A DNA stretch of 64,000 nucleotides, from positions 26,053 through 90,052 of the IMG/VR virus record IMGVR_UViG_3300011115_000716; one strand, written 5' to 3'. Below, in pieces: positions 11,881-63,793 of the stretch (position 1 is the first letter of the stretch; each line of letters starts with the position of its first letter). Both the position numbers and the translations under genes were made by a program. The notes under the pieces were generated by a model. The model saw nothing but the letters and a program-made list of their open reading frames with translations. It was not told the DNA's origin and made no database searches. Origin of the DNA: a virus.

Positions 11881-12546
11881 ATGGCTTTTTTGTTGGGTGA
11901 GGATAAAGCTCTGAGGGAACGCCTTCAGGGCATAGTTGTGCACGACCAAAAAGCTGATGCTACTAGCACTCCTCGTCAAGTTAGTGTTTTCTTTGGCCAG
12001 CCTGACCAAGAAATTAGGTCTCAGGTCTACCCGTATATAACAATAGATTTAATTGATATTAACAGAGATATGGAACGAGAAATGCGTGGTAAAACCGACG
12101 CAGACTACTTAGTTCCAGATAACGTTACTATTAGTTCTGGACAGTCTTTTGAAACAGACTTGCCAATTCCAGTTACTCTTGACTACCAGATTACTGCTTA
12201 TTCACGTAATCCACAGCACGATAGAACTCTTATGGCACAGCTTCTACATTCAAAACTTCCTTTTAGATTTGGCTACCTAGAAATAGTGGAAAAGAGTGTG
12301 ACCGTAGGTCAGACTACTACAAACACTAATACTATGCGTCGCCTAGATGTTCTGGATGTCTCCAAACGCGATATGACTGAATCGGGTAAGAGACTATTCA
12401 TGAATGCTGTAACTGTTCGTGTCTCGAGTGAAATACCTCAAGATACTTACAGAAAACTAATCGGTGTACAACAGGCAGTTATACGCGTTACAACAAAGCC
12501 TGACGTTTCAACTCAAATTACTGAGACTTTTACAAAAACTGTATAA
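11881..12546 (+). CDS. putative tail terminator / sheath-completion protein
   Basis: The protein has 221 residues. It begins LGEDKALRERLQG and has a beta-rich core (VYPYITIDLIDI, then IPVTLDYQITAYSRN), followed by a helix with HDRTLMAQLLHSKLP. This layout fits tail-terminator proteins of contractile tails, which cap the tube and sheath. The gene lies directly upstream of the sheath gene, as is usual. No catalytic motifs. Confidence 0.6.
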   Translation: MAFLLGEDKALRERLQGIVVHDQKADATSTPRQVSVFFGQPDQEIRSQVYPYITIDLIDINRDMEREMRGKTDADYLVPDNVTISSGQSFETDLPIPVTLDYQITAYSRNPQHDRTLMAQLLHSKLPFRFGYLEIVEKSVTVGQTTTNTNTMRRLDVLDVSKRDMTESGKRLFMNAVTVRVSSEIPQDTYRKLIGVQQAVIRVTTKPDVSTQITETFTKTV

Positions 12547-12586
12547 TCTGGAAACCTCCGAAAAACTAACTAACCAAGGAGTCTAA

Positions 12587-14167
12587 ATGACTGTGTATAA
12601 CCACCCTGGAGTTTATATCAATGAACTTCCATTAACGGTAACCACCAACGCATTTGGCTATTCAGCTAATGCCTCCGGTGCTATCGTGGCTCAATTTGCA
12701 AAGGGCCCAACAACAATTACCCGAGTTACTTCTTACTCTCAATTTGAAGATAAATTTGGTAGCATAAATGGTAGCTATCCTGCTACCTACAGCGTAAAGA
12801 TGTTCTTCAACAATGGTGGAACAGACCTTTACGTTCGTCGTGTAGTCGCTTCAGATGCTCCACAAGCAACTGTTGCCTTGTACGATACCGCTGGAACTCC
12901 TGTAAAGATTGCTGATATTCAGGCAAAGTACAAAGGTAATGACGGCGTGTCTCTACGTATTAAGGTAGATAACAAAACTACTATTAATGGAAAAGACTAC
13001 TACGACTTCCATGTATACTTTGACGATGGTGACAGTGACTACATAAGCAGTAGTTTTACTCAGTCTAGAGCATCTCTAAACACTGAAATTGAGCGCTTTA
13101 ACTCAGTTAGCTTTGACCAGCCTGATTCAAGTAGCTACATTAAGACTGTTCTTGCTTTGTCCTCAACTAAGGTTCAAGTTAATGGAGCTGTAACTACTCC
13201 TACTGCTACAATAAACTCTACCTACTTGCCATTGACAGGTACACTAAGCACTGCTGCTCTTGTTAAGGCTGACTATACTGGTGACACTGGAAGCTTAGCA
13301 ACAGTTGCTTCTTACACTGTTCTAAACGAGTACAATGTTGTTGACTGTCCACTTGTATTTTTCCTTCCAGATGTGCCTAAGTTTCTCAGTTCTTCGGATG
13401 CTCAAAGTGTATTTAACGCCACTATTTCATGGGCTGAAGTAAACACAAGCCGTTTTGTAGTGCTAGATACTCCGGCAGAATTGAGTGTTGCAGGTGCTGG
13501 AACTTTTGCTAGTTCTTTGAGCGTATCAAGTCGTGCGGCAGTTTACTACCCACATGTGTACATCAAAGATACTTCAATTAGCGGTAGCCCACTTCGTAAG
13601 ATTGGTCCAGCTGGTGCTGTTGCAGGTTTATATCTGTTTACTGACCGAAAGTCTGGTCCTTACAAGACTCCTGCCGGTATTGGAGCTAAGATTCAAGATG
13701 CACTTGCTATTGAAAAGCTACTTACCAATGATGACCTAGACACTCTAAACAACACTACCTATCCATTGAACGCTATTCGTAACGTTCCTGGTGCTGGAAT
13801 TGTTGTAATGGGTGGACGTACTCTAAAGCAGGATGGAACCGCTAACCGCTACATTGCAATGCGTCGTTCTCTAACCTACATCGAAAAGAGTTTGTCAGAC
13901 CTTACTCAGTTTGCTGTATTTGAAAGCAACAGTGAGATTCTATGGTCTCGCATTACAACTGCTCTAGCTGCGTTCTTAAACACATATCGCAATCAGGGCG
14001 GTCTTCGTGGCGCAACACCAGAAGATGCTTTCTTTGTAAAGTGTGACTCAACTAACAACTCAACTCAATCAATTGCTAACGGAATTGTTAACATTGATGT
14101 TGGTGTTGCTCTTGAGTACCCAGGTGAGTTTGTAATCATCAACCTAAGCCAAATCGTCGGCCAGTAA
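12587..14167 (+). CDS. tail sheath protein
   Basis: In this 526-residue protein, the N-terminal YNHPGVYINELP opening and the FAKGPTTITRVTSYSQFEDKFG segment are signatures of phage tail sheath proteins. The C-terminal third has the conserved TLNNTTYPLNAIRNVPGAGIVVMGGRT and RRSLTYIEKSL blocks that form the tube-facing domain. The start follows AAGGAG. It polymerises around the tube and contracts on infection. Followed by the tube gene, as in all contractile tails. Confidence 0.95.
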   Translation: MTVYNHPGVYINELPLTVTTNAFGYSANASGAIVAQFAKGPTTITRVTSYSQFEDKFGSINGSYPATYSVKMFFNNGGTDLYVRRVVASDAPQATVALYDTAGTPVKIADIQAKYKGNDGVSLRIKVDNKTTINGKDYYDFHVYFDDGDSDYISSSFTQSRASLNTEIERFNSVSFDQPDSSSYIKTVLALSSTKVQVNGAVTTPTATINSTYLPLTGTLSTAALVKADYTGDTGSLATVASYTVLNEYNVVDCPLVFFLPDVPKFLSSSDAQSVFNATISWAEVNTSRFVVLDTPAELSVAGAGTFASSLSVSSRAAVYYPHVYIKDTSISGSPLRKIGPAGAVAGLYLFTDRKSGPYKTPAGIGAKIQDALAIEKLLTNDDLDTLNNTTYPLNAIRNVPGAGIVVMGGRTLKQDGTANRYIAMRRSLTYIEKSLSDLTQFAVFESNSEILWSRITTALAAFLNTYRNQGGLRGATPEDAFFVKCDSTNNSTQSIANGIVNIDVGVALEYPGEFVIINLSQIVGQ

Positions 14168-35222: not shown

Positions 35223-37223
35223 ATGAACATCATCACAACTGTTGAACAGTTACAAGAATTTATAGAGTATTACTCTAAAGTCGATGCGTTTGCATTTGAC
35301 GTAGAAACAATTGGCGATGACCGTTTATACCCAGTCATCAATGATGTTTGCTGGATTTCGTTTGCGACTGATGGTCGTGTAGACGTTATACCAATGGGCC
35401 ACCCTAATGGCGAACTACAGGATTACGATAAGCCCCTTCTTCTTGCAGGCCAGCGTAGGTTAGCAGATGGTAAGGAGCTTTTAGACTCACACTACTCAAA
35501 AGATGAACGTAAGTGGATTCCTAAATTTAGTGAACCACCAACCCAACTAACTCCAGGGCAAGTTTTTAAAGCAATACAGCCACTTATGTTTGGAGACAAA
35601 CTAAAGATTGGTCACAACGTTAAATTTGACCTTAAATCAATTGCAAAATATTTTGGTGGTAAGGTGCCATCTAAACCTTTCTTTGATACCCTAACCGCAC
35701 AGTTTATTATAAATAACTTAAATAAAAATAACCTTAATCTTAAAGACTCAGTAAAACGTGAACTTCATGTTGAAATGGAAAAAGGAGTTGGTGAGAATGT
35801 TGCTTTACACAGTTTTTCTGCTGTTGCTAATTATTCTGGTATTGATGCCGAGCTAACTTGGGAACTTTATAAAACCTTGCTTCCCAGAATTTCTGGTGGA
35901 CTTACCAGAGTCTGGAAGTTAGAAATGGATGTCTTAGGTGCTCTATGTGACATGGAGTTGACTGGCGCATACATTGATACTAAAACTCTTGAAGAACTTG
36001 CTGAACAAATTAGCGAAGATAAAGAAAATGCAAAAGCCTTGGCATTTAAAGTTGCGGGGGAGGCATTTGCCATCAACTCTGTCCCAGCCAAACAGAAGCT
36101 TTTGTTTACAGCCGAAGATGGTAAAAAACCTCGCATAACTCCAAACACAAAGTTTAAAAACGTTTTAACTACAAAAGGCTTTGAAACTCAACGTGCCGGA
36201 GGGCAACTAACTTCTGCACATTATTCCGTATCTGCGGATGCACTTGAGTATTACCGTGGCAAGGACGACCTTGTAGATGCACTATTAGGGTACCAAGACT
36301 TAAACAAGCTTATGACTACCTATGTAACCCCCTATGCAGGTGGAACAGTGGAGCGTGAAACTAACGGTAAAAAGACCTCTAGCGAGCGTAAGAGCCTCTT
36401 AATAAACGGACGTGTACATACCAACTTTAAGTCTCACGGGGCCGAGACGGGCCGGTTTAGCTCGTCTGAGCCTAATTTGCAGAACATCCCATCATCTGGG
36501 GATTACGGTAAGCTTATCCGCAACCTATTTGTTGCTCCTCCTGGACATAAGCTAGTTGTTGCTGACTACTCTCAGATTGAACCTCGTGTTATTGCATCGT
36601 TTAGCGATGACCCTCTTTTGGTTGATAACTATATGACTGGCAAAGATATCTACACAACAATTGGTGACACAATGGGAGTAGACCGTAAAGCAGGTAAGGT
36701 TCTTGTGCTAGCCATTTCGTATGGTGTTGGACCTGACAAAATTGCTGCATCTATTGGCTGCTCTGTAACAGAAGCCAAACAACTTCTTCGTGATTTTGAA
36801 GCTAAATTTTCATCTATTCCTAGATACAAAGGAAAAGTAGTACGCCTAGCCAAACACTCAGGACCAGTACCTTTTGTAGAGACTATATTTGGTCGTCGTA
36901 GATATATTCCAGATTTGCTTCAACGTGACCCAGGCCTACTTGCTCGCGCAGAACGTCAAGCATTTAACACAGTTATTCAGGGCTCAGCGGCAGATATTAT
37001 GAAATTAGCTCTTGTCCGTGCACATTCATGCTTTATAGATGAAGATGATATAAATGTAATATTGACTGTTCATGATGAACTTGTTACAATTACACCAGAA
37101 GACCGTGCAGACGAAGTAGCAGAGGCTATTCGCGTTTCTATGGAAGGAATACAACTTAAGGAGATTACTGTTCCACTTATCGCAGACGTTAAAATTGTTG
37201 ACAAGTGGGGTGAGGCTAAATAA
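35223..37223 (+). CDS. DNA polymerase, family A
   Basis: The protein has 666 residues. The 3'-5' exonuclease has DVET (D26, E28), IGHNVKFDLKSI and YSGIDAELTW. The polymerase has motif A VADYSQIEPR (D448; Pro in place of the usual Leu), motif B DRKAGKVLVLAISYGVG and motif C VHDEL (H617-D618-E619). There is no 5'-3' exonuclease domain. It copies the phage genome. The stop overlaps the next start by one base (TAATG). Confidence 0.95.
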   Translation: MNIITTVEQLQEFIEYYSKVDAFAFDVETIGDDRLYPVINDVCWISFATDGRVDVIPMGHPNGELQDYDKPLLLAGQRRLADGKELLDSHYSKDERKWIPKFSEPPTQLTPGQVFKAIQPLMFGDKLKIGHNVKFDLKSIAKYFGGKVPSKPFFDTLTAQFIINNLNKNNLNLKDSVKRELHVEMEKGVGENVALHSFSAVANYSGIDAELTWELYKTLLPRISGGLTRVWKLEMDVLGALCDMELTGAYIDTKTLEELAEQISEDKENAKALAFKVAGEAFAINSVPAKQKLLFTAEDGKKPRITPNTKFKNVLTTKGFETQRAGGQLTSAHYSVSADALEYYRGKDDLVDALLGYQDLNKLMTTYVTPYAGGTVERETNGKKTSSERKSLLINGRVHTNFKSHGAETGRFSSSEPNLQNIPSSGDYGKLIRNLFVAPPGHKLVVADYSQIEPRVIASFSDDPLLVDNYMTGKDIYTTIGDTMGVDRKAGKVLVLAISYGVGPDKIAASIGCSVTEAKQLLRDFEAKFSSIPRYKGKVVRLAKHSGPVPFVETIFGRRRYIPDLLQRDPGLLARAERQAFNTVIQGSAADIMKLALVRAHSCFIDEDDINVILTVHDELVTITPEDRADEVAEAIRVSMEGIQLKEITVPLIADVKIVDKWGEAK

Positions 37224-39416: not shown

Positions 39417-39728
39417 ATGGCTAAATCAGAAGGTCAAAAACAATCTCAAAAACACGAAAAAAGAATTGCCAAAGCAGTTGGTGGTAGTACTACTGCTGCT
39501 TCTGGAGCGTTCTGGTCTCGTAAAGGAGACGTTCGTAATAACGACCTTCTAATTGAGCACAAATGGACTGGCAAAAAAACTAAAACCATAAGCTCAGCAG
39601 AATTGAAGAAAATTACTAATGAAGCTATTATGGACGGTAGACTACCTGTCTTTGGAATTCATTTGGATGGAGAAGACTACGTTATTCTTCTTGAGACAGA
39701 CTTCTTAGAAATGTGGAATAAATTTTGA
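39417..39728 (+). CDS. putative Holliday-junction-resolvase-like nuclease (PD-(D/E)XK)
   Basis: The protein has 103 residues. D38 (GDVR), D43 and E47-H-K49 (LLIEHKW) give the metal-binding core of the PD-(D/E)XK fold, followed by helices and a VFGIHLDGEDYVILLETDF strand pair. Size and order resemble small Hjc-like resolvases of phages. Its neighbours RecA and the Cas4-like nuclease support a recombination role. Confidence 0.7.
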   Translation: MAKSEGQKQSQKHEKRIAKAVGGSTTAASGAFWSRKGDVRNNDLLIEHKWTGKKTKTISSAELKKITNEAIMDGRLPVFGIHLDGEDYVILLETDFLEMWNKF

Positions 39729-40057
39729 ATTTCTACTATGATGAAGACCTGCTTGAACAGGCTCGTTGTTCCGGAATAGAAGACCCTGATATATTCTTTC
39801 CTAACCGAAACAAAGATACTTATAAGCAAGTTGCTGCTCAAGCAAAAGAGTATTGCTTTGGTGTGGGTGGAAAAGACCCATGTCCAATTAGAGTAAAATG
39901 TCTGTGGCAGGCAGTAGAATCAGATGAACAACACGGTATTTGGGGCGGCCTATCACACCGTGAACGAAACGCACTTGTGCGTAAGTGGCAAAAGAAGTAT
40001 AAAAGTACTATGACTCTGAAAGAATTTATCTTTCAGTTAGATAAGAAGGAGAAATAA
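39725..40057 (+). CDS. WhiB-family iron-sulfur protein with enlarged cysteine spacing
   Basis: The 110-residue protein starts at TTG 39725. Cysteines are C15, C44, C53 and C59, and the GIWGG turn with HRER follows, as in WhiB. WhiB proteins normally have C-x2-C before the final C-x5-C; here C44-x8-C53 contains an extra FGVGGKDP segment. The family binds a 4Fe-4S cluster and the host sigma factor. It lies in the recombination operon, unlike the canonical WhiB at 57424. Confidence 0.85.
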   Translation: MNFYYDEDLLEQARCSGIEDPDIFFPNRNKDTYKQVAAQAKEYCFGVGGKDPCPIRVKCLWQAVESDEQHGIWGGLSHRERNALVRKWQKKYKSTMTLKEFIFQLDKKEK

Positions 40058-55128: not shown

Positions 55129-57171
55129 ATGATAAATTTTTCATTTAAATTAGCAGATGAGTTCGTAGCGGGGTATAAAAACAAAAAAGCACCATTTGGT
55201 TACGCAGACGTTGCCGGGAATTCAGTAGGAGAAATTACATTCCTACGTACATATAGTCGTTTGAAAGAAGATGGCACCAAGGAAACCTGGGCGGATGTTT
55301 GCGAGCGTGTTATTAACGGTATGTATTCATTACAGAAAGACCACGCAAAGCAGAACCGTTTGCCATGGAGCGACGCAAAAGCTGCGGCGTCAGCCAAAGA
55401 AGCGTATGACCGTTTATTTAATTTAAAGTGGACACCGCCAGGGCGTGGGTTGTGGGTAATGGGTACTGATATTGTAAATGAGCAGAAGAATTCAGCAGCG
55501 TTGCAGAATTGCGCGTTCGTTAGTACCAACGAGATGACCAAGAACAATCCGTCAAAGCCATTTGGATTCCTGATGGAAGCCTCAATGTTGGGCGTAGGCG
55601 TAGGGTTTGATGATAAAGGCGCTGATAAAGGGTTTGATATATATGAGCCAGGAGCAGTTCAGGAGTATTTGATTCCAGATACCCGCGAAGGCTGGGCAGA
55701 ATCTACAATGGCGTTGATTAATTCATATCTAAAGGTAGACCAGCCAAAATATGAGTTTAATTATGATGATATTAGACCATATGGAGCAGTTATTAAGACG
55801 TTTGGAGGAACAGCGTCAGGCCCGGAACCGTTGGTTAAGTTGCATGAGAACATTAAAAAGATGTTTGATGGCCGTAAAGGCGATAAATTAACACGCGTTG
55901 ATATTGCTGATATCGGTAATATGATTGGTGTTTGTGTGGTTTCCGGGAATGTTCGCCGTTCAGCTGAGCTGTTAATTGGGCGTATTGATGATGAGGATTT
56001 CCTGAACCTAAAGAATGCAGACAAATTCCCTGGGCGTAATTCATATGACCCTGAGAATCCAGGCTGGGCATGGATGAGTAATAACTCTGTAGATGTTTGT
56101 GTTGGGACGGATTTTGGACCTATTGTTGATGGGATTGTACGCAACGGAGAACCCGGCGTTATATGGATGGACGTAAGCCGTAAATACGGACGTCTTGTTG
56201 ATGCGCCTAATAATAAAGATAGGCGTGTAGTGGGCTACAACCCTTGTGCAGAGCAGAGCCTTGAAAGTTTTGAGATGTGTACTCTAGTAGAAACTTACTT
56301 GAATCGCCACGAATCCCTTGAGGACTTCAAGCGTACATTAAAGTTTGCTTATTTATATGCAAAGACTGTGACACTACTCCCAACACATTGGGAGGAGACC
56401 AATGCCATTATGCAGCGGAATCGTCGCATTGGTACGTCTGTCTCTGGTGTGGCTAACTTTGCTGATAACAAGGGTATGCAAACCCTACGTGAGTGGATGG
56501 ATGAAGGCTACAAGACTGTACGCGACTACGACATCTCTTACTCAGAGTGGCTAGGTATTCGCGAGTCTATTAAGATGACTACTGTAAAGCCGTCAGGCAC
56601 TGTGTCTATTTTGGCTGGAGAATCTCCAGGTGTTCACTGGCCTAGTGGTGGTAAGCATTTTTTACGTGCTATTCGTTTTGGAAACAACGACCCTATGTTG
56701 CCGTTGTTTAAGATGGCTAACTATCGTATAGAGCCAGCTAGCGAATCACCAGAGACTACGTCTGTTGTGTTCTTCCCTATTAAGACTGACGCTAAGCGCA
56801 GTGAAAAGGAAGTGTCTATCTACGAAAAGGTTAACCTAGCTGTGACTGCTCAACGCTGGTGGTCAGACAACTCTGTGTCTGTAACAGTAACCTTTGATGC
56901 TGAAAAAGAAAAGAATGATGTTGGCACCGTACTACATATGTACGATGGTCAGCTAAAGACTGTAAGCTTCCTCCCTATGGGTAACCATGTGTACCCACAG
57001 ATGCCATATACTCAGATAACTGAGGAGGAGTACGACCAGTATGCGTTGCAACTATTTGCAATTGACTTTGCTGGGGTGTATGCTGGTATGGCAGCAGATG
57101 CTGTTGGTGAGGCTTATTGCACCACCGATGCATGTGAAGTAAAACTAATAACAGAAAACAATAAGGAGTAA
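55129..57171 (+). CDS. nrdJ: adenosylcobalamin-dependent ribonucleoside-triphosphate reductase (class II)
   Basis: The 680-residue protein matches the monomeric B12-dependent reductase of the Lactobacillus type: WTPPGRGLWVMGTD, LQNCAF (C128), VSGNVRRSAE, NPCAEQSLESFEMC (C373, C384) and a C-terminal CTTDAC pair. It reduces NTPs to dNTPs for phage replication and needs adenosylcobalamin. By eye, codon choice changes sharply inside the gene at about 56.0-56.2 kb. SD AGGAAG is before the ATG. Confidence 0.9.
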   Translation: MINFSFKLADEFVAGYKNKKAPFGYADVAGNSVGEITFLRTYSRLKEDGTKETWADVCERVINGMYSLQKDHAKQNRLPWSDAKAAASAKEAYDRLFNLKWTPPGRGLWVMGTDIVNEQKNSAALQNCAFVSTNEMTKNNPSKPFGFLMEASMLGVGVGFDDKGADKGFDIYEPGAVQEYLIPDTREGWAESTMALINSYLKVDQPKYEFNYDDIRPYGAVIKTFGGTASGPEPLVKLHENIKKMFDGRKGDKLTRVDIADIGNMIGVCVVSGNVRRSAELLIGRIDDEDFLNLKNADKFPGRNSYDPENPGWAWMSNNSVDVCVGTDFGPIVDGIVRNGEPGVIWMDVSRKYGRLVDAPNNKDRRVVGYNPCAEQSLESFEMCTLVETYLNRHESLEDFKRTLKFAYLYAKTVTLLPTHWEETNAIMQRNRRIGTSVSGVANFADNKGMQTLREWMDEGYKTVRDYDISYSEWLGIRESIKMTTVKPSGTVSILAGESPGVHWPSGGKHFLRAIRFGNNDPMLPLFKMANYRIEPASESPETTSVVFFPIKTDAKRSEKEVSIYEKVNLAVTAQRWWSDNSVSVTVTFDAEKEKNDVGTVLHMYDGQLKTVSFLPMGNHVYPQMPYTQITEEEYDQYALQLFAIDFAGVYAGMAADAVGEAYCTTDACEVKLITENNKE

Positions 57172-57341: not shown

Positions 57342-57351
57342 TTAAAAGTAA

Positions 57352-57391
57352 TAAGGCCCCCCGCATATAATGGCAGGGGGCCTTATTTATT
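57352..57391 (+). terminator. bidirectional terminator at the strand switch
   Basis: A 10-bp perfect stem (57352-57361 with 57376-57385), G/C-rich with T/A at its base, and a 14-base loop. T-rich sequence follows on the plus strand, and an A-rich flank on the other side serves the minus strand. It separates the convergent plus and minus transcription units. Confidence 0.85.
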
Positions 57392-57423: not shown

Positions 57424-57690
57424 TTACTTGCTAGTTACTTGAATAACTAACTCTTTTTTAGCCCTAGGATTATTCTTAACCCTAACGCGTTCAGCCATCG
57501 TAGTGCCTCCCCAAACACCGAACTCATCGTTCTTAAAAGCGTATGTTAAACACTGCATAACTACTGGGCATATACCGCAATAGCTTTTAGCTTCAGCAAC
57601 TTTATCTATTTCTTTTGCATCAGCAAAGAATATCTCTGGGTTAGCAGTTTTACACGCTGCTTGGTCCATATCAATATCATCTATTTCCAT
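57424..57690 (-). CDS. WhiB-family iron-sulfur transcription factor
   Basis: The 88-residue protein has the canonical WhiB set: C13, C38-x2-C41-x5-C47, then FGVWGGTT and a basic C-terminal tail (RVRVKNNPRAKKE) for DNA contact. WhiB proteins bind host sigma factors and redirect transcription in actinobacteria and their phages. It is the last gene of the minus-strand operon. SD GGAGAAAATAAA lies before the ATG. Confidence 0.95.
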   Translation of the reverse strand: MEIDDIDMDQAACKTANPEIFFADAKEIDKVAEAKSYCGICPVVMQCLTYAFKNDEFGVWGGTTMAERVRVKNNPRAKKELVIQVTSK

Positions 57691-57691
57691 T

Positions 57692-57910
57692 TTATTTTCT
57701 CCTGTTCTTTTTAATAAGGTCTATACCATTGGCACGCAAATCACGTTTAATATTTTCTAGTGCCCTGTTATCTGATGGAGTTGAGGATATAAACACGATG
57801 TTTCCATTAGAACAAATTACTTTATAATGGTTGTTACGTGCTCGTAAAACTTGGCCTCCTTGGTTTTCTACTTGTTTAAACAAGGACCGTAGTTCTTTCA
57901 TTGATGACAT
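57692..57910 (-). CDS. HicA-like small protein
   Basis: I start at ATG 57910, behind GGAGGTAAAG; the frame is open further upstream but only as a shadow of the next gene. In this 72-residue protein, LRARNNHYKVICSNGNIVFISSTPSDNRALENIKRDLRANG follows the HicA-like fold (a small double-stranded-RNA-binding type, toxin in bacteria). No HicB antitoxin gene is beside it. It overlaps the gene at 57876 by 35 bases. Confidence 0.7.
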   Translation of the reverse strand: MSSMKELRSLFKQVENQGGQVLRARNNHYKVICSNGNIVFISSTPSDNRALENIKRDLRANGIDLIKKNRRK

Positions 57911-58454
57911 CTTTACCTCCTTTAATTGGCCACACATAGTCATAAGATTCAGGTGCAACACCCCTATCTTCTGGCCAGTTGAATTGGTTATAATGCTCAT
58001 AGTGTTTAAATAGTAATGCTTGACGATGACTAGTTGCCATGGCGTCAAACATTTCTTGGTCACGCATCCAACTAGGGATTGCCTTACCAAGCTTGTCATT
58101 GTCTTTTGCTTTCATAGCTGTTGAAAGTGTTTTGACAGCAAGTGTAGTTTTAAACCCACGAGCCTTCCATTCGTTAATCATTGCTTGAATATAAAAATAC
58201 AATACTAACTCTGAACCACGCCACATCTTAACTGCAGGGTGGCTAGACCACCCTGCAGGTTTACGATAGTTGCCTTGTGGGTCAAGTTCTGTAAGATTCA
58301 TAAGAATCTGCCAACCTTCAAGAGCTTGTTTAAATAGGCGTTTGTTATCTAACTGACGAGCAATGTCTGCTCCCCATTTATTAAGGTCGTTTAACGCTTG
58401 AGTAGTGTTTAACTCAGAGTTAATCGTTATCGATATCGGCAAAAACGTCTGCAT
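57876..58454 (-). CDS. pyrimidine-dimer DNA glycosylase-like protein
   Basis: In this 192-residue protein, MQTFLP at the N-terminus, then IARQLDNKRLFKQALEGWQIL and AGWSSHPAVKMWRGSELVLYFYIQAMINEWKARGF, follow the DenV/MSMEG_6728-like glycosylase pattern (LD.kRL.KQ..E and HPa..MW). Such enzymes cut UV-induced dimers. SD AGAGGA. The gene has 35-base overlaps with both neighbours. Confidence 0.75.
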   Translation of the reverse strand: MQTFLPISITINSELNTTQALNDLNKWGADIARQLDNKRLFKQALEGWQILMNLTELDPQGNYRKPAGWSSHPAVKMWRGSELVLYFYIQAMINEWKARGFKTTLAVKTLSTAMKAKDNDKLGKAIPSWMRDQEMFDAMATSHRQALLFKHYEHYNQFNWPEDRGVAPESYDYVWPIKGGKDVINERTTVLV

Positions 58455-58662
58455 ATGTTTCCTCTGTTAGTAGGCCAATGTCCTGTAGTATTAATGCAAT
58501 AGTAGTTTCGCTAAACTCGTTCTCACGAAGGATAGGGACTAGCTTGTCTACTACTGACAGGCGCTTGTACTTTAAGCCAAGAGTGAACGCTTCTTCCATT
58601 GTTCCACGCACTGTGTTCAATAGCTTGTCTGTTGCATCGTTGATGATTGTTTCTTTTTCCAT
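58420..58662 (-). CDS. hypothetical small acidic protein
   Basis: In this 80-residue protein, helices with KLLNTVRGTMEEAFTLGLKYKRLSVVDKLVPIL are followed by an acidic tail. Its leader AAGGAGAAACAAATG is one of the near-identical ribosome sites in this operon. No family recognised. Confidence 0.7.
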   Translation of the reverse strand: MEKETIINDATDKLLNTVRGTMEEAFTLGLKYKRLSVVDKLVPILRENEFSETTIALILQDIGLLTEETYADVFADIDND

Positions 58663-58672
58663 TTGTTTCTCC

Positions 58673-58891
58673 TTATTTGTTTTCGCATTGTTGTATTGCT
58701 AGTGATTCTGTTGGCCATTTGTCCCAACAGGTTTCTGGTTTGTTTTTAGTGCACTCACTAATACTATGAGTACCCTGTAAATCCTGGTACTCAATAGTAG
58801 AGCAAGTATAGTTTTGATGCCAGTAAAGATATCCTATACCTAACGTCAGACATAATAAAGAAATTAATAGTAACTTTAGTTCTTTACTCAT
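58673..58891 (-). CDS. small membrane-anchored Cys-containing protein
   Basis: I start at ATG 58891, overlapping the previous gene by 8 bases, not at upstream in-frame ATGs that lie inside it. In this 72-residue protein, residues 6-24 are one hydrophobic span (LLLISLLCLTLGIGYLYW). The rest is an outside-facing polar domain with four Cys that may form disulfides. It might act at the envelope, for example in superinfection exclusion; this is a guess. Confidence 0.6.
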   Translation of the reverse strand: MSKELKLLLISLLCLTLGIGYLYWHQNYTCSTIEYQDLQGTHSISECTKNKPETCWDKWPTESLAIQQCENK

Positions 58892-59093
58892 TGTCAGGCT
58901 CTGGTTCCCAACTGTAGTCAGGCTCGTCAGGTTCACACCCTCCATCGCATACGCCTTTACCATCGCAGTACTCACACTTAATATCATCAAGTGTGCCTAC
59001 ACCATCACATTCATCACACTCGTGTTCACAAGCTTCAGATTGGTTTGTGTAGGGCGCTTCTAGCCACGCGTCATACCCAGGTAATGATTCCAT
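58884..59093 (-). CDS. DnaJ-type zinc-knuckle protein
   Basis: In this 69-residue protein, CDECDGVGT and CEYCDGKGVC form two CxxCxGxG repeats as in DnaJ zinc fingers, set in a very acidic sequence. No J domain is present. Possibly a protein-binding decoy. Family otherwise unknown. Confidence 0.7.
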   Translation of the reverse strand: MESLPGYDAWLEAPYTNQSEACEHECDECDGVGTLDDIKCEYCDGKGVCDGGCEPDEPDYSWEPEPDNE

Positions 59094-59096
59094 TGT

Positions 59097-59258
59097 TTAT
59101 TCTCCTTCTTCTTCGTTTAGACTAAGCCAGTCATTAAATGTAACACGATAGGCTATAGGGTCACACTCTTTTAATATTTTAGAGGGGGATAGTATGAGCC
59201 CTACAATTTCATAGGGCTCATACATTTCGTCTAAGAGTTCATCAAACTCTTCTTCCAT
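59097..59258 (-). CDS. hypothetical small acidic protein
   Basis: The 53-residue protein starts at ATG 59258, overlapping the previous stop by one base, with GGAGGAAAA as ribosome site. It is acidic (EEEFDELLDEMYEPYE). No family recognised. Confidence 0.6.
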   Translation of the reverse strand: MEEEFDELLDEMYEPYEIVGLILSPSKILKECDPIAYRVTFNDWLSLNEEEGE

Positions 59259-59434
59259 TAGTTTTCCTCCTCATCGTATCTTGCATCTGCAAGTTTGATT
59301 AGCATATCAGCAATTGCTTCTGCTTGGTCTTTTGTTTTGTCGAACATATTTTCAGCTGGTACTCTAGATTCCAACATCGATATATAGTCAACAATACTGT
59401 CTACAGTATCAATTGATAATTTAATTTTACTCAT
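59258..59434 (-). CDS. hypothetical small protein
   Basis: This 58-residue protein is amphipathic helical (SIVDYISMLESRV, then AIADMLIKLADARYDEEE). SD GGAGGAATGTA is before the ATG. TAATG coupling to neighbours. No family recognised. Confidence 0.6.
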   Translation of the reverse strand: MSKIKLSIDTVDSIVDYISMLESRVPAENMFDKTKDQAEAIADMLIKLADARYDEEEN

Positions 59435-59625
59435 TACATTCCTCCTAACTTAATATCTAAGTCGATGCCTTTATCGCCATCGACATCCATTGCTACCCAG
59501 CCTTCATAAAACATAGCTGGACGTAAGACATTCTTACTGATTAGGTACTCAATAATTCTGTCTTGTTCGTGTTGTGCCCCTAAGTGGTAGTCACCACTGC
59601 GGACTGTACCATCATTTGTTTCCAT
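59434..59625 (-). CDS. hypothetical small protein
   Basis: This 63-residue protein is acidic, with HLGAQHEQDRIIEYLISKNVL helix and a C-terminal DVDGDKGIDLDIKLGG strand region. TAATG coupled. No family recognised. Confidence 0.6.
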   Translation of the reverse strand: METNDGTVRSGDYHLGAQHEQDRIIEYLISKNVLRPAMFYEGWVAMDVDGDKGIDLDIKLGGM

Positions 59626-59789
59626 TAGTTTTCCTCTAGTTGTTCTACTTCATAGTTTTCTAGTACATCATTGATTGCATCTTCTAAAGAGTTATAGAAA
59701 AGGTGTAGTTCAAGTTCATCCATATGATTCACTTGTAGTTCACGTAGGTTCATACTCCATACGATTTCTCCGTGCTCGTGTTGGTTCAT
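59625..59789 (-). CDS. hypothetical small acidic protein
   Basis: I start at ATG 59789, with AAAGGAATC upstream; the longer frame reaches into the previous gene. The 54-residue protein is acidic and helical. No family recognised. Confidence 0.6.
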   Translation of the reverse strand: MNQHEHGEIVWSMNLRELQVNHMDELELHLFYNSLEDAINDVLENYEVEQLEEN

Positions 59790-60001
59790 TAGTTGATTCC
59801 TTTCTTTGCTTTGTAATCTTCTACGATATGCCATAGTTCCATATCAAGGTACTCTGCTACAGCATCTTCAATACTGTCGCAGATGTCTTCCCACTCACTA
59901 TCTGTTAGTCGGTGGGCTAGTGTGTCATCAATATAAGACTCAAAGTTTTCTTTATCGATTAACATTGTTTCCATTGCTTTTCTTATGTGTTGCTCAGCCA
60001 T
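59789..60001 (-). CDS. hypothetical small acidic protein
   Basis: Two starts are possible: ATG 60001 (70 residues, overlapping the previous gene by 19 bases) or ATG 59974 (61 residues). The protein is helical and acidic (LTDSEWEDICDSIEDAVAEYLDMELW). No family recognised. Confidence 0.6.
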   Translation of the reverse strand: MAEQHIRKAMETMLIDKENFESYIDDTLAHRLTDSEWEDICDSIEDAVAEYLDMELWHIVEDYKAKKGIN

Positions 60002-60171
60002 GGCTCTTCTACTTCCTCTTCGTGTGCTGTTACTGGTGATTCCCAATCGTGGTCATCATTAATCCATTCGTTTGCTTCTTCTTCTGTATCAAACGTAGGG
60101 GCCCAGTTAACTGGTACCCAACCATAGCCTGAGCCATAGTCTACGTATACTCTCCATATTGTTTTACTCAT
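59983..60171 (-). CDS. hypothetical small Trp-rich acidic protein
   Basis: In this 62-residue protein, strands (IWRVYVDYGSGYGWVPV) and a helix with EEEANEWIND are followed by an acidic tail. Leader AAGGAAAAACAAATG matches the operon's shared ribosome-site pattern. No family recognised. Confidence 0.65.
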   Translation of the reverse strand: MSKTIWRVYVDYGSGYGWVPVNWAPTFDTEEEANEWINDDHDWESPVTAHEEEVEEPWLSNT

Positions 60172-60361
60172 TTGTTTTTCCTTTGTTTAGTATTTCTAGT
60201 GCGGTAATGTTGTCATCCCAATTTGTAGGTTCCCATGTGTAGGTATCCGTGTCCCAAGTGCCTTCATCTTTTCCAAATCTGGCAGTAAATGTGTCATCAT
60301 CTACCCACCACTCTTTAGTAGCTAGGTCTACAACGACAACAAAGTGAACTTGCTTACTCAT
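60164..60361 (-). CDS. hypothetical small Trp-rich acidic protein
   Basis: In this 65-residue protein, VHFVVVVDLATKEWWVDDDTF and WDTDTYTWEPTNWDD suggest a small beta fold. It overlaps the next gene by 8 bases and carries the shared leader (AGGAGTAACAAATG). No family recognised. Confidence 0.65.
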   Translation of the reverse strand: MSKQVHFVVVVDLATKEWWVDDDTFTARFGKDEGTWDTDTYTWEPTNWDDNITALEILNKGKTNE

Positions 60362-60546
60362 TTGTTACTCCTTTTGTTTTTAATAATTACCTTTACTTCA
60401 AGCTCATAGAATCTTTCTACAAGTTCTAATGCTGTCTCCCAATAACCCAAGTCAATACCTGTGTCATTGTGAGTGGCTACCAGTTCTTCTGCCAAACGTT
60501 CGGCTAGTTCTTCTAGTGTTAAGTGCTTTACATATTTTTCGGCCAT
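60358..60546 (-). CDS. hypothetical small protein
   Basis: In this 62-residue protein, helical LTLEELAERLAEELVATH and ALELVERFYELEVKVII are followed by a basic tail. Leader AAGGAGAAACAAATG. No family recognised. Confidence 0.65.
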   Translation of the reverse strand: MAEKYVKHLTLEELAERLAEELVATHNDTGIDLGYWETALELVERFYELEVKVIIKNKRSNK

Positions 60547-60556
60547 TTGTTTCTCC

Positions 60557-61021
60557 TTATATTAGTGTTAGTGTTAGTGTTGTTGCGAATGTTGCTAGAA
60601 TTACTGGCCCTAGTGGTATTGCTGTAGGTAGTTTTTTCTTTAGGAACATGGTAAGTATTGTTACTACAAACCCAACTGCTATTGATATAGGCATTAGTAA
60701 TACTGCACCTAACATCGTAAACCAACTAAGCATCATAGTTAATGCTACTAGTAGTTTTACATCTCCCATACCAACCCATTGGAAATAGTTAGCGGCTAGT
60801 CCTAGTACTAGCATTGCAAAGCCTAGCCCTACGGAGATACCCAGGGACGCCCAGGCTCCTGTCCATATTGCTAGTGTTAGTTGTGATAAGAAAGTAATTG
60901 CTATCATAGGCAAGACAATCTTGTTAGGAAGTCTGTGCTGTTTAATATCAATTACCATTAGTGGTACTGCTGTTGCTGCTATGTACGCTACTGGTAGCAT
61001 ACTGATTAGTTGTTGTATCAT
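60557..61021 (-). CDS. type IV prepilin peptidase-like protein (A24, TadV/CpaA type)
   Basis: The 154-residue integral membrane protein has six likely spans. The two catalytic Asp of aspartic prepilin peptidases are present: D25 in MVIDIKQHRLPNKI and D87 in VGMGDVKLL (the GxGD motif). The cytoplasmic methylase domain is missing, as in TadV/CpaA. It would cut leaders of host or phage prepilins. No prepilin gene is visible in the window. It lies in the minus-strand host-modification operon. Confidence 0.85.
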   Translation of the reverse strand: MIQQLISMLPVAYIAATAVPLMVIDIKQHRLPNKIVLPMIAITFLSQLTLAIWTGAWASLGISVGLGFAMLVLGLAANYFQWVGMGDVKLLVALTMMLSWFTMLGAVLLMPISIAVGFVVTILTMFLKKKLPTAIPLGPVILATFATTLTLTLI

Positions 61022-61023
61022 TT

Positions 61024-61215
61024 TTATTCCTCCTCTTCTTCTTTTTGTTCTTCTACCCAGGTATCATCCTGCCATTCGAATGAACCATTAACTTCATAGC
61101 CTCCGCCATCCATAAGCTCAGCCATACCTAGTTCTAATGCTTCATCTTCATTATTTGCATCAACAATAACTTCATAGTATGTTACTCCTGCTTGCTGTAC
61201 TTTATATGTTGCCAT
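61024..61215 (-). CDS. hypothetical small acidic protein (A-N-x-E-A type)
   Basis: In this 63-residue protein, strands (YKVQQAGVTYYEVIVDA) lead to NNEDEALELGMAEL helix and an acidic tail. Architecture matches the proteins at 61491, 61988 and the end of 63044. Function unknown. Confidence 0.65.
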   Translation of the reverse strand: MATYKVQQAGVTYYEVIVDANNEDEALELGMAELMDGGGYEVNGSFEWQDDTWVEEQKEEEEE

Positions 61216-61216
61216 T

Positions 61217-61402
61217 TTATTCTCCTTGTATTAGTCGGATGAGGTCTTCAGTGTTTACTACACGAGAGCCATCATCTGTTTTTGATATTGATGTCCAAGC
61301 AATATTGCTGAGTAATTCAATGATTCTTTCATACTCTGCCATTTGCCCTTGTTGATACCAGTGGCGTCTTACCACTAATAGTTTTGCTTTTGCTACATTC
61401 AT
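61217..61402 (-). CDS. hypothetical small protein
   Basis: The 61-residue protein has a basic N-terminus (NVAKAKLLVVRRHWYQQGQMAEYERII) and acidic end. Its ATG overlaps a tiny upstream frame by 4 bases. No family recognised. Confidence 0.65.
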   Translation of the reverse strand: MNVAKAKLLVVRRHWYQQGQMAEYERIIELLSNIAWTSISKTDDGSRVVNTEDLIRLIQGE

Positions 61403-61494
61403 TTCTTATCCTTTCTGATAAGTATTCCTTGTAGTGTTGCTAGTCGCATTATAATACGACTGATTAACCTGATTAGATATAGACGTATCATCAT
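61399..61494 (-). CDS. tiny basic hydrophobic peptide
   Basis: The 31-residue frame begins MMIRLYLIRLISRIIMRL and ends RKDKK. Its start overlaps the upstream stop, its stop overlaps the next start (ATGA), and GAGGAAGAAG lies before it. This frame explains the gap between the two neighbours better than the longer competing frame at 61406-61660. Confidence 0.5.
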   Translation of the reverse strand: MMIRLYLIRLISRIIMRLATLQGILIRKDKK

Positions 61495-61706
61495 TCTTCT
61501 TCCTCACATTCGCATTCATCATCAGGGTTGTCACACTCTTCACAGTGTGGCAATTCTTCAACTTTAATCTCTTCAACACTTTCGTATTGTAATGGAGCAT
61601 TATCGTCATAGTAAGATACCCAAGCAAGTTGCTCGGCTTCTTGTTCGCTGTTTGCTTCAAGCTCTCCTGAATAGTTAACTTGAATAGTTACATAATATTT
61701 ACGCAT
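61491..61706 (-). CDS. hypothetical small acidic protein with Cys-rich tail
   Basis: In this 71-residue protein, YYVTIQVNYSGELEANSEQEAEQLAWVSY is the same strand-then-helix unit as at 61024. A C-terminal CEECDNPDDECECEEEE may bind metal. No family recognised. Confidence 0.65.
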   Translation of the reverse strand: MRKYYVTIQVNYSGELEANSEQEAEQLAWVSYYDDNAPLQYESVEEIKVEELPHCEECDNPDDECECEEEE

Positions 61707-61840
61707 TAGTATTCCTCCAACTCATATACTTCGGTACAGTTAGGGCAAAGGTTGTCGCCCATAACTTTTGTTCCTTCGGATAACTCATACTCTTTACCAC
61801 ACCAATCACATTTAGTAGGCTCCATATATTTGTCTTCCAT
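61706..61840 (-). CDS. small zinc-ribbon protein
   Basis: I start at ATG 61840 with leader AAGGAGAAACAAATG. In this 44-residue protein, CDWCGKEYELSEGTKVMGDNLCPNC forms a zinc ribbon. TAATG to the next gene. Confidence 0.7.
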   Translation of the reverse strand: MEDKYMEPTKCDWCGKEYELSEGTKVMGDNLCPNCTEVYELEEY

Positions 61841-61850
61841 TTGTTTCTCC

Positions 61851-61988
61851 TTATCTATCTTCGTGACCACAGAACACTTGACCGCATTCTGGACACATTT
61901 GGTTTTCGCAGTTATGGCACATTTCCCACTTATCAATTTGTGATTGAGTTGTAGGCTCATCACATTGCGGGCAATATATCATTGTCAT
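61851..61988 (-). CDS. small multi-zinc-ribbon protein
   Basis: The 45-residue protein has three CxxC knuckles (CPQC, CHNC, CPEC) and a last C-G-H, enough for two zinc ions. SD GAGG lies before ATG 61988, which overlaps the previous stop; ATG 61982 is a possible alternative. Confidence 0.6.
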   Translation of the reverse strand: MTMIYCPQCDEPTTQSQIDKWEMCHNCENQMCPECGQVFCGHEDR

Positions 61989-62161
61989 TAGTTAACCTCT
62001 TCATAAGTAATTTTTCCATCTACATACTCTATGTTTTCTTCAGGGATAATATTAGGCAATACAGGGTTTTCATACCCATCAGTAATGGTTTGCCTAACTT
62101 CATCAAGGTTGTCTATTTCTACTAGGTATCTAGCAGTAATAGTTATTTCATATTTACTCAT
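61988..62161 (-). CDS. hypothetical small acidic protein (strand-helix type)
   Basis: In this 57-residue protein, KYEITITARYLVEIDNLDEVRQTI resembles the strand-then-helix units at 61024 and 61491. Leader AAGGAGAAACAAATG. TAATG coupled to the next gene. Confidence 0.6.
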   Translation of the reverse strand: MSKYEITITARYLVEIDNLDEVRQTITDGYENPVLPNIIPEENIEYVDGKITYEEVN

Positions 62162-62294
62162 TTGTTTCTCCTTCTTGTTTGTGGCAATTACAGTAGCAAT
62201 ACCACACCTTATCGTACCAGCGGATTACTGTACGACATTTTTCGTGAGTACCTGTATGACAATACCCACAGATTCTAGTTGTATCTTCTGACAT
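62154..62294 (-). CDS. small cysteine-rich zinc-binding protein
   Basis: The 46-residue protein has CGYCHTGTHEKC and CYCNCHK as probable metal-binding clusters. It overlaps the next gene by 8 bases and supplies its GGAG ribosome site. Confidence 0.6.
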   Translation of the reverse strand: MSEDTTRICGYCHTGTHEKCRTVIRWYDKVWYCYCNCHKQEGETNE

Positions 62295-62614
62295 TACGCT
62301 CCTAGGTTAACTACTACGTAACCTTCCTTAGTCAACTCTTCTTCAAGAGTTCCATCAAGGAACGTGCCTAGCCCTTTAGATACAGCAATACCTTCACCCA
62401 AATCAAAAGCAGGCAGAATCATTGTTTTGCGTTCATTGCCTTGAACTTGGTCATAATCTGATACATCTTCTCCATACATTTGAATAAGGTTTAAGAAGTT
62501 TTGTCCAGTAGTTACGGCTATTACTGCTGCACCATAGTACTCAGGTGTCATTTGGTACATTTGCATTGGTGCTTCAGACATTTCTGTCATTAGACGTGCA
62601 ATTTTTGTTTCCAT
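62294..62614 (-). CDS. hypothetical protein
   Basis: In this 106-residue alpha/beta protein, helices at the N-terminus (RLMTEMSEAPMQMYQMTPEYYG) are followed by a C-terminal Gly-rich strand region. SD AAGGAGAAACAGT. TAATG-coupled on both sides. No family recognised. Confidence 0.65.
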   Translation of the reverse strand: METKIARLMTEMSEAPMQMYQMTPEYYGAAVIAVTTGQNFLNLIQMYGEDVSDYDQVQGNERKTMILPAFDLGEGIAVSKGLGTFLDGTLEEELTKEGYVVVNLGA

Positions 62615-62979
62615 TACTGTTTCTCCTTTTTGTCGATTGCTTGTTGAATACCATCTTGAATTAATACCATAACATCTTGTATTGATTTATCAGATAGACC
62701 AGTTGTGTTACCTTCTTCATCTGCTCCACCAGTAATGATTACATCTCCCATAACTACATCAAAGTTAGGGAAGACTTTATTCCATATGATAGTGGCTATT
62801 ACATTCGGCTCAAGTCCAATTAACTTACCTTCTTCATTGAGCCACATATCAATATCTTCATTGATACTAACCAACTCAATCATTCCGTTTACTGCTGTTG
62901 ATAGAGTTTCATACTCAATAGACTCTACTTCTTTAATCTCCACTGTATTATCAGTTCGGATTGATATTACTTTTTCCAT
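62614..62979 (-). CDS. DUF3846-like protein
   Basis: I start at ATG 62979 (GGAGCAATACAA upstream). In this 121-residue protein, IDMWLNEEGKLIGLEPNVIATIIW and GDVIITGGADEEGNTTGLSD match the small DUF3846 family (VDEEGK.k.lp.N.kA..L.......i.G.vvi..), found in phages and plasmids and of unknown role. Confidence 0.65.
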   Translation of the reverse strand: MEKVISIRTDNTVEIKEVESIEYETLSTAVNGMIELVSINEDIDMWLNEEGKLIGLEPNVIATIIWNKVFPNFDVVMGDVIITGGADEEGNTTGLSDKSIQDVMVLIQDGIQQAIDKKEKQ

Positions 62980-63043
62980 TTGTATTGCTCCTATTGTTTG
63001 TGTTGGCACGCCTGCCTTTATGCTGACGTGTTATTGCTACTCA

Positions 63044-63793
63044 TTACTCAGCGTCTTTCGCTGGTGTAATAAGAATACTTGGCACTGGGTTGTACTTAGT
63101 CATTACAGTATTGGCTGGCATATCAAACCCATCTTCATATGATTTGATAGCATCCATTGCTGCACGCATATTGTTAGCGGTTATGTAATGAGTATGCGTT
63201 ACTTCTACTTTATATACATCTTGCTCATCTCTAGGACAATCGTCATACCATTCAGATTCAGATTCATACTGAACACACCAACAACTGTCAAGCATATCTC
63301 TTGCTTCCCAGTCAGCATGACAGTTTGGTGACTCATAGTTAGTTTGAGTGAACGTACCACCAGTACCTATAATTTCTACGGCTTCAGACTCTTCACCTTC
63401 GGACCATATATTAAACTCTAGGCTAGGGTATTGATTAATTAAGTTATGGAAGATACCTATAGGCCAATCGTATTTAGTATCAATACGTATAGCCGCTACA
63501 TAGTTTGGAGTGTGTGTGATATTGAATACGTCTAGTTCTTCAGCAGGTGCATCATAACATTGCCAGTGTTCTTGTCTCCATTGATTGCCTGTTTCAGTCC
63601 ACCACTCTCCAGACATTAACAGTTCTTCTGGAGGAGGAGTTATATTATAGAATGAAAACTCTTCTTCAGACCATACTATATCTCCTTCATCATTTAGTTC
63701 TTTAGGGCGACGTTGAGTAAGTTTAGATATATAAGCTTCAATATCTTCTTTACTACCTGTTGCTCTTACGTGATGATTAATCCAATAACCCAT
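63044..63793 (-). CDS. hypothetical protein with YubB/ferredoxin-like domain
   Basis: In this 249-residue protein, the N-terminal HHVRATGSKEDIEAYISKL, then FSFYNITPPPEELLMSGEWW, resembles the ferredoxin-like DUF1281/YubB domain of phage and plasmid proteins. The last 60 residues carry a HYITANNMRAAMDAIKSYEDG unit similar in style to the small proteins at 61024 and 61491. The middle is acidic and Trp/Tyr-rich. Role unknown. The gap 62980-63043 holds no gene. Confidence 0.6.
   Translation of the reverse strand: MGYWINHHVRATGSKEDIEAYISKLTQRRPKELNDEGDIVWSEEEFSFYNITPPPEELLMSGEWWTETGNQWRQEHWQCYDAPAEELDVFNITHTPNYVAAIRIDTKYDWPIGIFHNLINQYPSLEFNIWSEGEESEAVEIIGTGGTFTQTNYESPNCHADWEARDMLDSCWCVQYESESEWYDDCPRDEQDVYKVEVTHTHYITANNMRAAMDAIKSYEDGFDMPANTVMTKYNPVPSILITPAKDAE

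Follow-up and report, generated by a model that had tools for sequence, protein, structure and literature searches.

The gene described here is predicted to encode a prepilin peptidase that is carried by a phage and belongs to an old, virus-specific clade within the Peptidase_A24 family. Our preferred reading, to which we give about an even chance, is that it is a working TadV-like prepilin peptidase of a virus-specific actinophage family, acting on prepilins of the Tad/Flp type in the host. Such a viral prepilin peptidase family appears to be previously undescribed. The gene lies in a stretch of 64,000 nt, here called the window, which comprises bases 26,053–90,052 of a viral record of 90,052 b (IMGVR_UViG_3300011115_000716). 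The features discussed below are collected in Table 1.

Table 1. Features of the window, in window positions
Feature	Position	Strand	Remarks
Tail sheath protein	12587..14167	+	Phage hallmark
DNA polymerase	35223..37223	+	Nearest named relatives in Streptomyces phages
B12-dependent (class II) ribonucleotide reductase (RNR)	55129..57171	+	75% identity to Actinomycetia phage DSL-LC01
Terminator-like hairpin	57350..57387	-	Strong, 15 pairs; end of small-ORF run, before the converging RNR gene
WhiB-like transcription factor	57424..57690	-	Pfam E=5.7e-18; actinobacterial host marker
Run of very small, tightly spaced ORFs including the peptidase	57424..63793	-	Probable operon
Downstream flank gene, conserved	60358..60546	-	62 aa; 72% identity in G425
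Viral prepilin peptidase (Peptidase_A24)	60557..61021	-	154 aa; six predicted helices; D25 and GMGD (84-87)
Small ORF	61024..61215	-	63 aa; directly upstream of the peptidase; missing together with it from sister phage G425
Upstream flank gene, conserved	61217..61402	-	61 aa; 66% identity in peptidase-less sister G425

The peptidase ORF begins with ATG, has an AGGAGG 7 nt upstream and lies 2 nt after the stop of the preceding ORF. Its product matches the Pfam profile Peptidase_A24 with E=1.4e-11 and 45.2 bits, above the cut-off of 26.5. An earlier note on this DNA had stated that the catalytic Asp pair and the GxGD motif are kept, and indeed both D25 and G84-M-G-D87 were found; the first Asp is followed by a retained RLPNK stretch. 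In an AlphaFold2 model (pLDDT 90, pTM 0.84) the protein consists of six helices, and the multi-helix membrane domain expected of the family is thus present in this model. Judged from its sequence, the protein satisfies the definition of Peptidase_A24. The note had also assigned it to the short TadV/CpaA form: the short, domain-only form holds, but the specific label is not backed by a curated match, as NCBIfam gave none for this peptidase. Searches of the PDB by sequence and by fold gave nothing significant. A fold search in BFVD returned two unnamed proteins of 138–141 aa, A0A5Q2W8A6 and A5Y2D8 (TM ~0.6, probability 1.00, E 0.05–0.17), which may be additional viral A24 enzymes.

That the gene is located on a phage, as had been proposed, is borne out by the 90,052-b source record, which encodes a tail sheath (contractile tail), a baseplate wedge and a DNA polymerase. 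The record carries a direct terminal repeat of 127 b at its ends and is therefore most likely a complete, circularly assembled phage genome. The host is probably an actinobacterium, since a WhiB-like factor is found together with an actinophage-like RNR, polymerase and sheath. The closest named relatives of the sheath are in Streptomyces phages, and the RNR is 57% identical to those of Mycobacterium phages and 93–95% identical to those of G426 and G425, two sister phages without peptidase. A possible second WhiB-like protein (39725–40057, + strand) was noticed on visual inspection and through its clustering with homologues from phages. No tRNA that could serve as a host clue was found within the window.

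Successive searches of IMG/VR for relatives of the peptidase yielded one (60% identity), then 18 and finally 44 loci; together with one further contig from a search blind to the peptidase, about 45 contigs are known. Altogether 29 distinct viral proteins were analysed, including the one described here, to which the others are 27–61% identical. GxGD is present in all 29 and the first Asp in 28. The aligned viral members are short (152–163 aa), lack an N-terminal domain and match the Peptidase_A24 profile in 28 out of 28 cases at E<=0.01, and each of the 28 peptidase-carrying virus records searched has a single copy. A maximum-likelihood tree divides the viral proteins from 29 bacterial ones with a branch support of 100/100. 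When the tree was enlarged to 44 actinobacterial A24 proteins, among them short forms selected for their resemblance to the viral ones, the viral proteins still formed a single clade (99/99). Scored with viral profiles, the bacterial relatives reach at most 81 bits and the viral members about 98 to 212, the cellular side of this comparison consisting of Actinomycetota only. A pattern scan over 84,980 bacterial and archaeal species gave a closest match of 34%, with none nearer.

The values of dN/dS lie between 0.17 and 0.43 for all viral pairs except one very close pair (0.65) and indicate purifying selection on the viral peptidases. In one lineage, consisting of one protein in three contigs (L050–L052), the first catalytic Asp is replaced by Asn while GMGD is kept, and this natural variant may have lost its catalytic function. 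The earlier note had named loss of the Asp pair among relatives as evidence against its proposal; such a loss was found in this divergent lineage only. The variant would speak for viral proteins that are non-catalytic decoys binding host prepilins or the Tad machine. Both Asp residues are, however, present in 28 of the 29 distinct proteins and dN/dS is low, which makes a decoy improbable.

The earlier note had regarded such enzymes as rare in phages, and this is confirmed for known phages: among 50,697 phage records searched, no peptidase was found, with the exception of one Salmonella contig. Relatives were likewise missing from PHROG, from plasmids and from cultured phages. The literature, as far as it was covered, was not found to describe a prepilin peptidase carried by a phage, and three papers on freshwater actinophages (PMC10202952, PMC10914622, PMC6802176) mention neither pili nor such a peptidase.

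The neighbours of the peptidase had been described as small host-modifying genes on the minus strand. They are indeed small ORFs on that strand, but have no assigned function, so that the host-modifying part of the description is not sustained. A promoter search gave a count at the level of chance. The downstream flank gene is present in 10 records, in eight of which it lies on the strand of the peptidase and less than about 5 kb from it. The run also contains four exact copies of a ribosome-binding and start stretch, AGGAGAAACAAATG (window positions 62171, 61850, 60556 and 58672, minus strand). Short repeats of this kind at gene borders could give rise to gene-sized swaps like the one seen in comparison with G425. 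Another member of the run (58673–58990, minus strand) belongs to a family of one-helix membrane proteins with a C-terminal CW..Y..E..AI..CE motif, which most of these phages encode, whether they carry the peptidase or not. This small bitopic protein was considered as a partner or substrate of the peptidase, to which it seemed linked at a strict threshold, but was rejected because a profile detects it in all four peptidase-less phages.

The 20 phage records that were compared, in which genes outside the present record were called by a simple ORF script, fall into four gene-content groups having few other genes in common. The phage described here (G000) and G001 share only about 4–5 genes, yet their peptidases are 60–62% identical; the peptidase gene therefore has probably moved between phage types. 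It is also missing from close relatives. The sister phage G425 is complete (94,440 b, 62-b terminal repeat), has an RNR with 95% identity and shares 95 genes; both flanking genes are kept there, and a 55-aa ORF replaces the peptidase together with the 63-aa ORF. The gene is also absent from Actinomycetia phage DSL-LC01. Among 12 contigs which were picked via an NlpC/P60 lipoprotein and whose peptidase status was not previously known, only one carries the peptidase. All this characterizes the peptidase as an accessory gene that is gained and lost. The lipoprotein itself is encoded outside the window at positions 12445–12972 of the G000 record (L003:12445–12972) and at L002:7728–8285, where its gene adjoins the prepilin peptidase; an invariant lipobox Gly-Cys and a WDCSG motif are found in 18 of 20 phages, and 249 viral contigs were matched. 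As a partner of the peptidase it was rejected: besides the 18 of the 20 records, it occurs in 11 of the 12 checked contigs in which no peptidase was detected, G425 and G426 among them.

The accessory nature of the gene and its absence from close relatives would fit a host gene that was captured recently, is merely passing through and has no role, and the earlier note had mentioned a passing host fragment as a possible objection. Yet the gene sits in an old viral clade of its own with strong support, recurs in about 45 contigs, is under purifying selection and has a phage-like base composition (GC3 of 0.28 compared with 0.33 +/- 0.08 for the phage). We consider recent capture very improbable indeed.

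A24 enzymes and their substrates are often encoded together. This, together with the recurrence of the peptidase in many phages, would speak for a role in maturing a pseudopilin encoded by the phage itself and serving to build or anchor a structure in the course of infection, a possibility already raised in the earlier note along with the suggestion to look for prepilin signals in the phage genome. The scan was extended to 20 phage records (~1.56 Mb, four of them with terminal repeats) and required a class III signal, i.e. G, A or S, four residues and E, followed by a hydrophobic stretch and accompanied by a basic leader; substrates lacking the Glu are missed by this pattern. Six poor matches and no credible prepilin were obtained, whereas the same scan recovered 24 out of 25 known actinobacterial Flp loci. 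With the Pfam profiles Flp_Fap and N_methyl nothing above cut-off was found in 17 phage records, and none of the gene families follows the presence of the peptidase from phage to phage. A pseudopilin of the phage's own hence finds no support here, and we think it improbable that one is the substrate. Since the phage carries a peptidase but no recognisable pili, it may use the enzyme on the pili of its host.

Among the proteins that branch off first on the bacterial side are short A24 proteins from actinobacteria with genomes of 1.5–1.8 Mb and a GC content of about 47% (45–50% at the loci). These actinobacteria presumably resemble the hosts of the phages. In one of them, G790, the gene for a 158-aa peptidase adjoins genes for T2SSE (TadA), two T2SSF proteins (TadB, TadC) and a TadZ-like protein; the same contig encodes two Flp prepilins (RG/ATAVEYALLV) and one TadE-like protein (KG/AAAVEFAIIL). 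Flp was found in 57 of 149 sampled Actinomycetota. In view of this Tad locus with its prepilins and of the frequency of Flp, hosts of this kind would offer substrates to a TadV-like enzyme made by a virus. Two other small-genome actinobacteria, G776 and G737 (loci L363 and L367), have kept a short A24 gene with no tad or flp genes seen nearby. The products of these two genes are possibly orphan prepilin peptidases, judging from the gene surroundings, and make a non-tad substrate possible. The A24 gene at L363 and L367 adjoins an epimerase-like gene, the homologue of which in G790 adjoins the Tad locus.

These orphans, the lack of a detected prepilin in the phages and the long divergence of the viral clade from bacterial A24 would all be compatible with an active GxGD membrane protease directed at a target other than pilin, be it a membrane protein of the host or a noncanonical one of the phage. 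On the other hand, the active-site motifs and the RLPNK region of the viral proteins match those of prepilin peptidases, no phage family tracks the peptidase, and the CW..CE protein is shared with all four peptidase-less phages. We regard a non-pilin target as rather unlikely, and the Tad pili of the host seem to be the best remaining idea.

According to the preferred reading, the peptidase would be produced from the cluster of small genes, insert into the host membrane and cut the leader of host Tad/Flp-type prepilins (G/ATAVEY...) or of TadE-like pseudopilins. The pool of mature pilins and with it the piliation of the infected cell would be altered, the outcome being, for example, a barrier to pilus-dependent superinfection or a change of the cell surface. 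Additional or changed processing might deplete the store of prepilins, alter piliation or block rivals that use the pili. Catalytic activity, a host substrate, the direction of the effect and a benefit to the phage are what we infer in this scheme. Prepilins need cleavage by a prepilin peptidase before assembly, which makes pilus maturation a choke point. A viral peptidase kept for long in several phage types with few common genes suggests a direct route by which phages act on the pili of their hosts; most phages of these bacteria are uncultured. More tentatively, we propose that a dedicated, exchangeable lineage of actinophage prepilin peptidases might reprogramme host Tad pili without any viral pilin, as an undescribed form of superinfection or surface control. 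The gene is testable, as peptidase-less sister phages and the Asp-to-Asn lineage provide natural controls.

Among known systems, the viral enzyme shares with TadV/CpaA the domain-only A24 architecture of ~155 aa, the D...R-L-P-N arrangement and GxGD, and the tad-linked peptidase of G790 belongs to the group branching early on the bacterial side. It differs in that no flp genes were found in the phage, in its separate clade and in an identity of only ~28–34% to the aligned bacterial forms. No tad/flp company was found in a search that covered pilin families in 17 records and prepilin signals in 20, and in the tree the enzyme falls outside the bacterial TadV-type sequences, in the viral clade (99/99); for these two reasons we call it TadV-like and not TadV. 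With PilD/ComC it has the A24 catalytic domain in common, but the N-terminal cysteine/methyltransferase part of these ~250-aa bacterial proteins is missing from all aligned viral members. The archaeal preflagellin peptidase FlaK is a GxGD membrane peptidase as well, and for one of the viral members NCBIfam returned a weak match to FlaK (E=8e-4); the viral enzyme, however, has no archaeal context and no significant structural match. Actinophage WhiB-like proteins, for which an effect on superinfection has been reported (PMC10202952), are likewise host-type genes on actinophages, but WhiB is a transcription factor and the peptidase a predicted membrane protease. The only precedent on a mobile element that we found is in thaumarchaeal integrative elements, where a prepilin peptidase is accompanied by pilins, TadC and ATPases and belongs with them to a predicted apparatus for conjugation (PMC6563490), whereas the phage enzyme stands alone.
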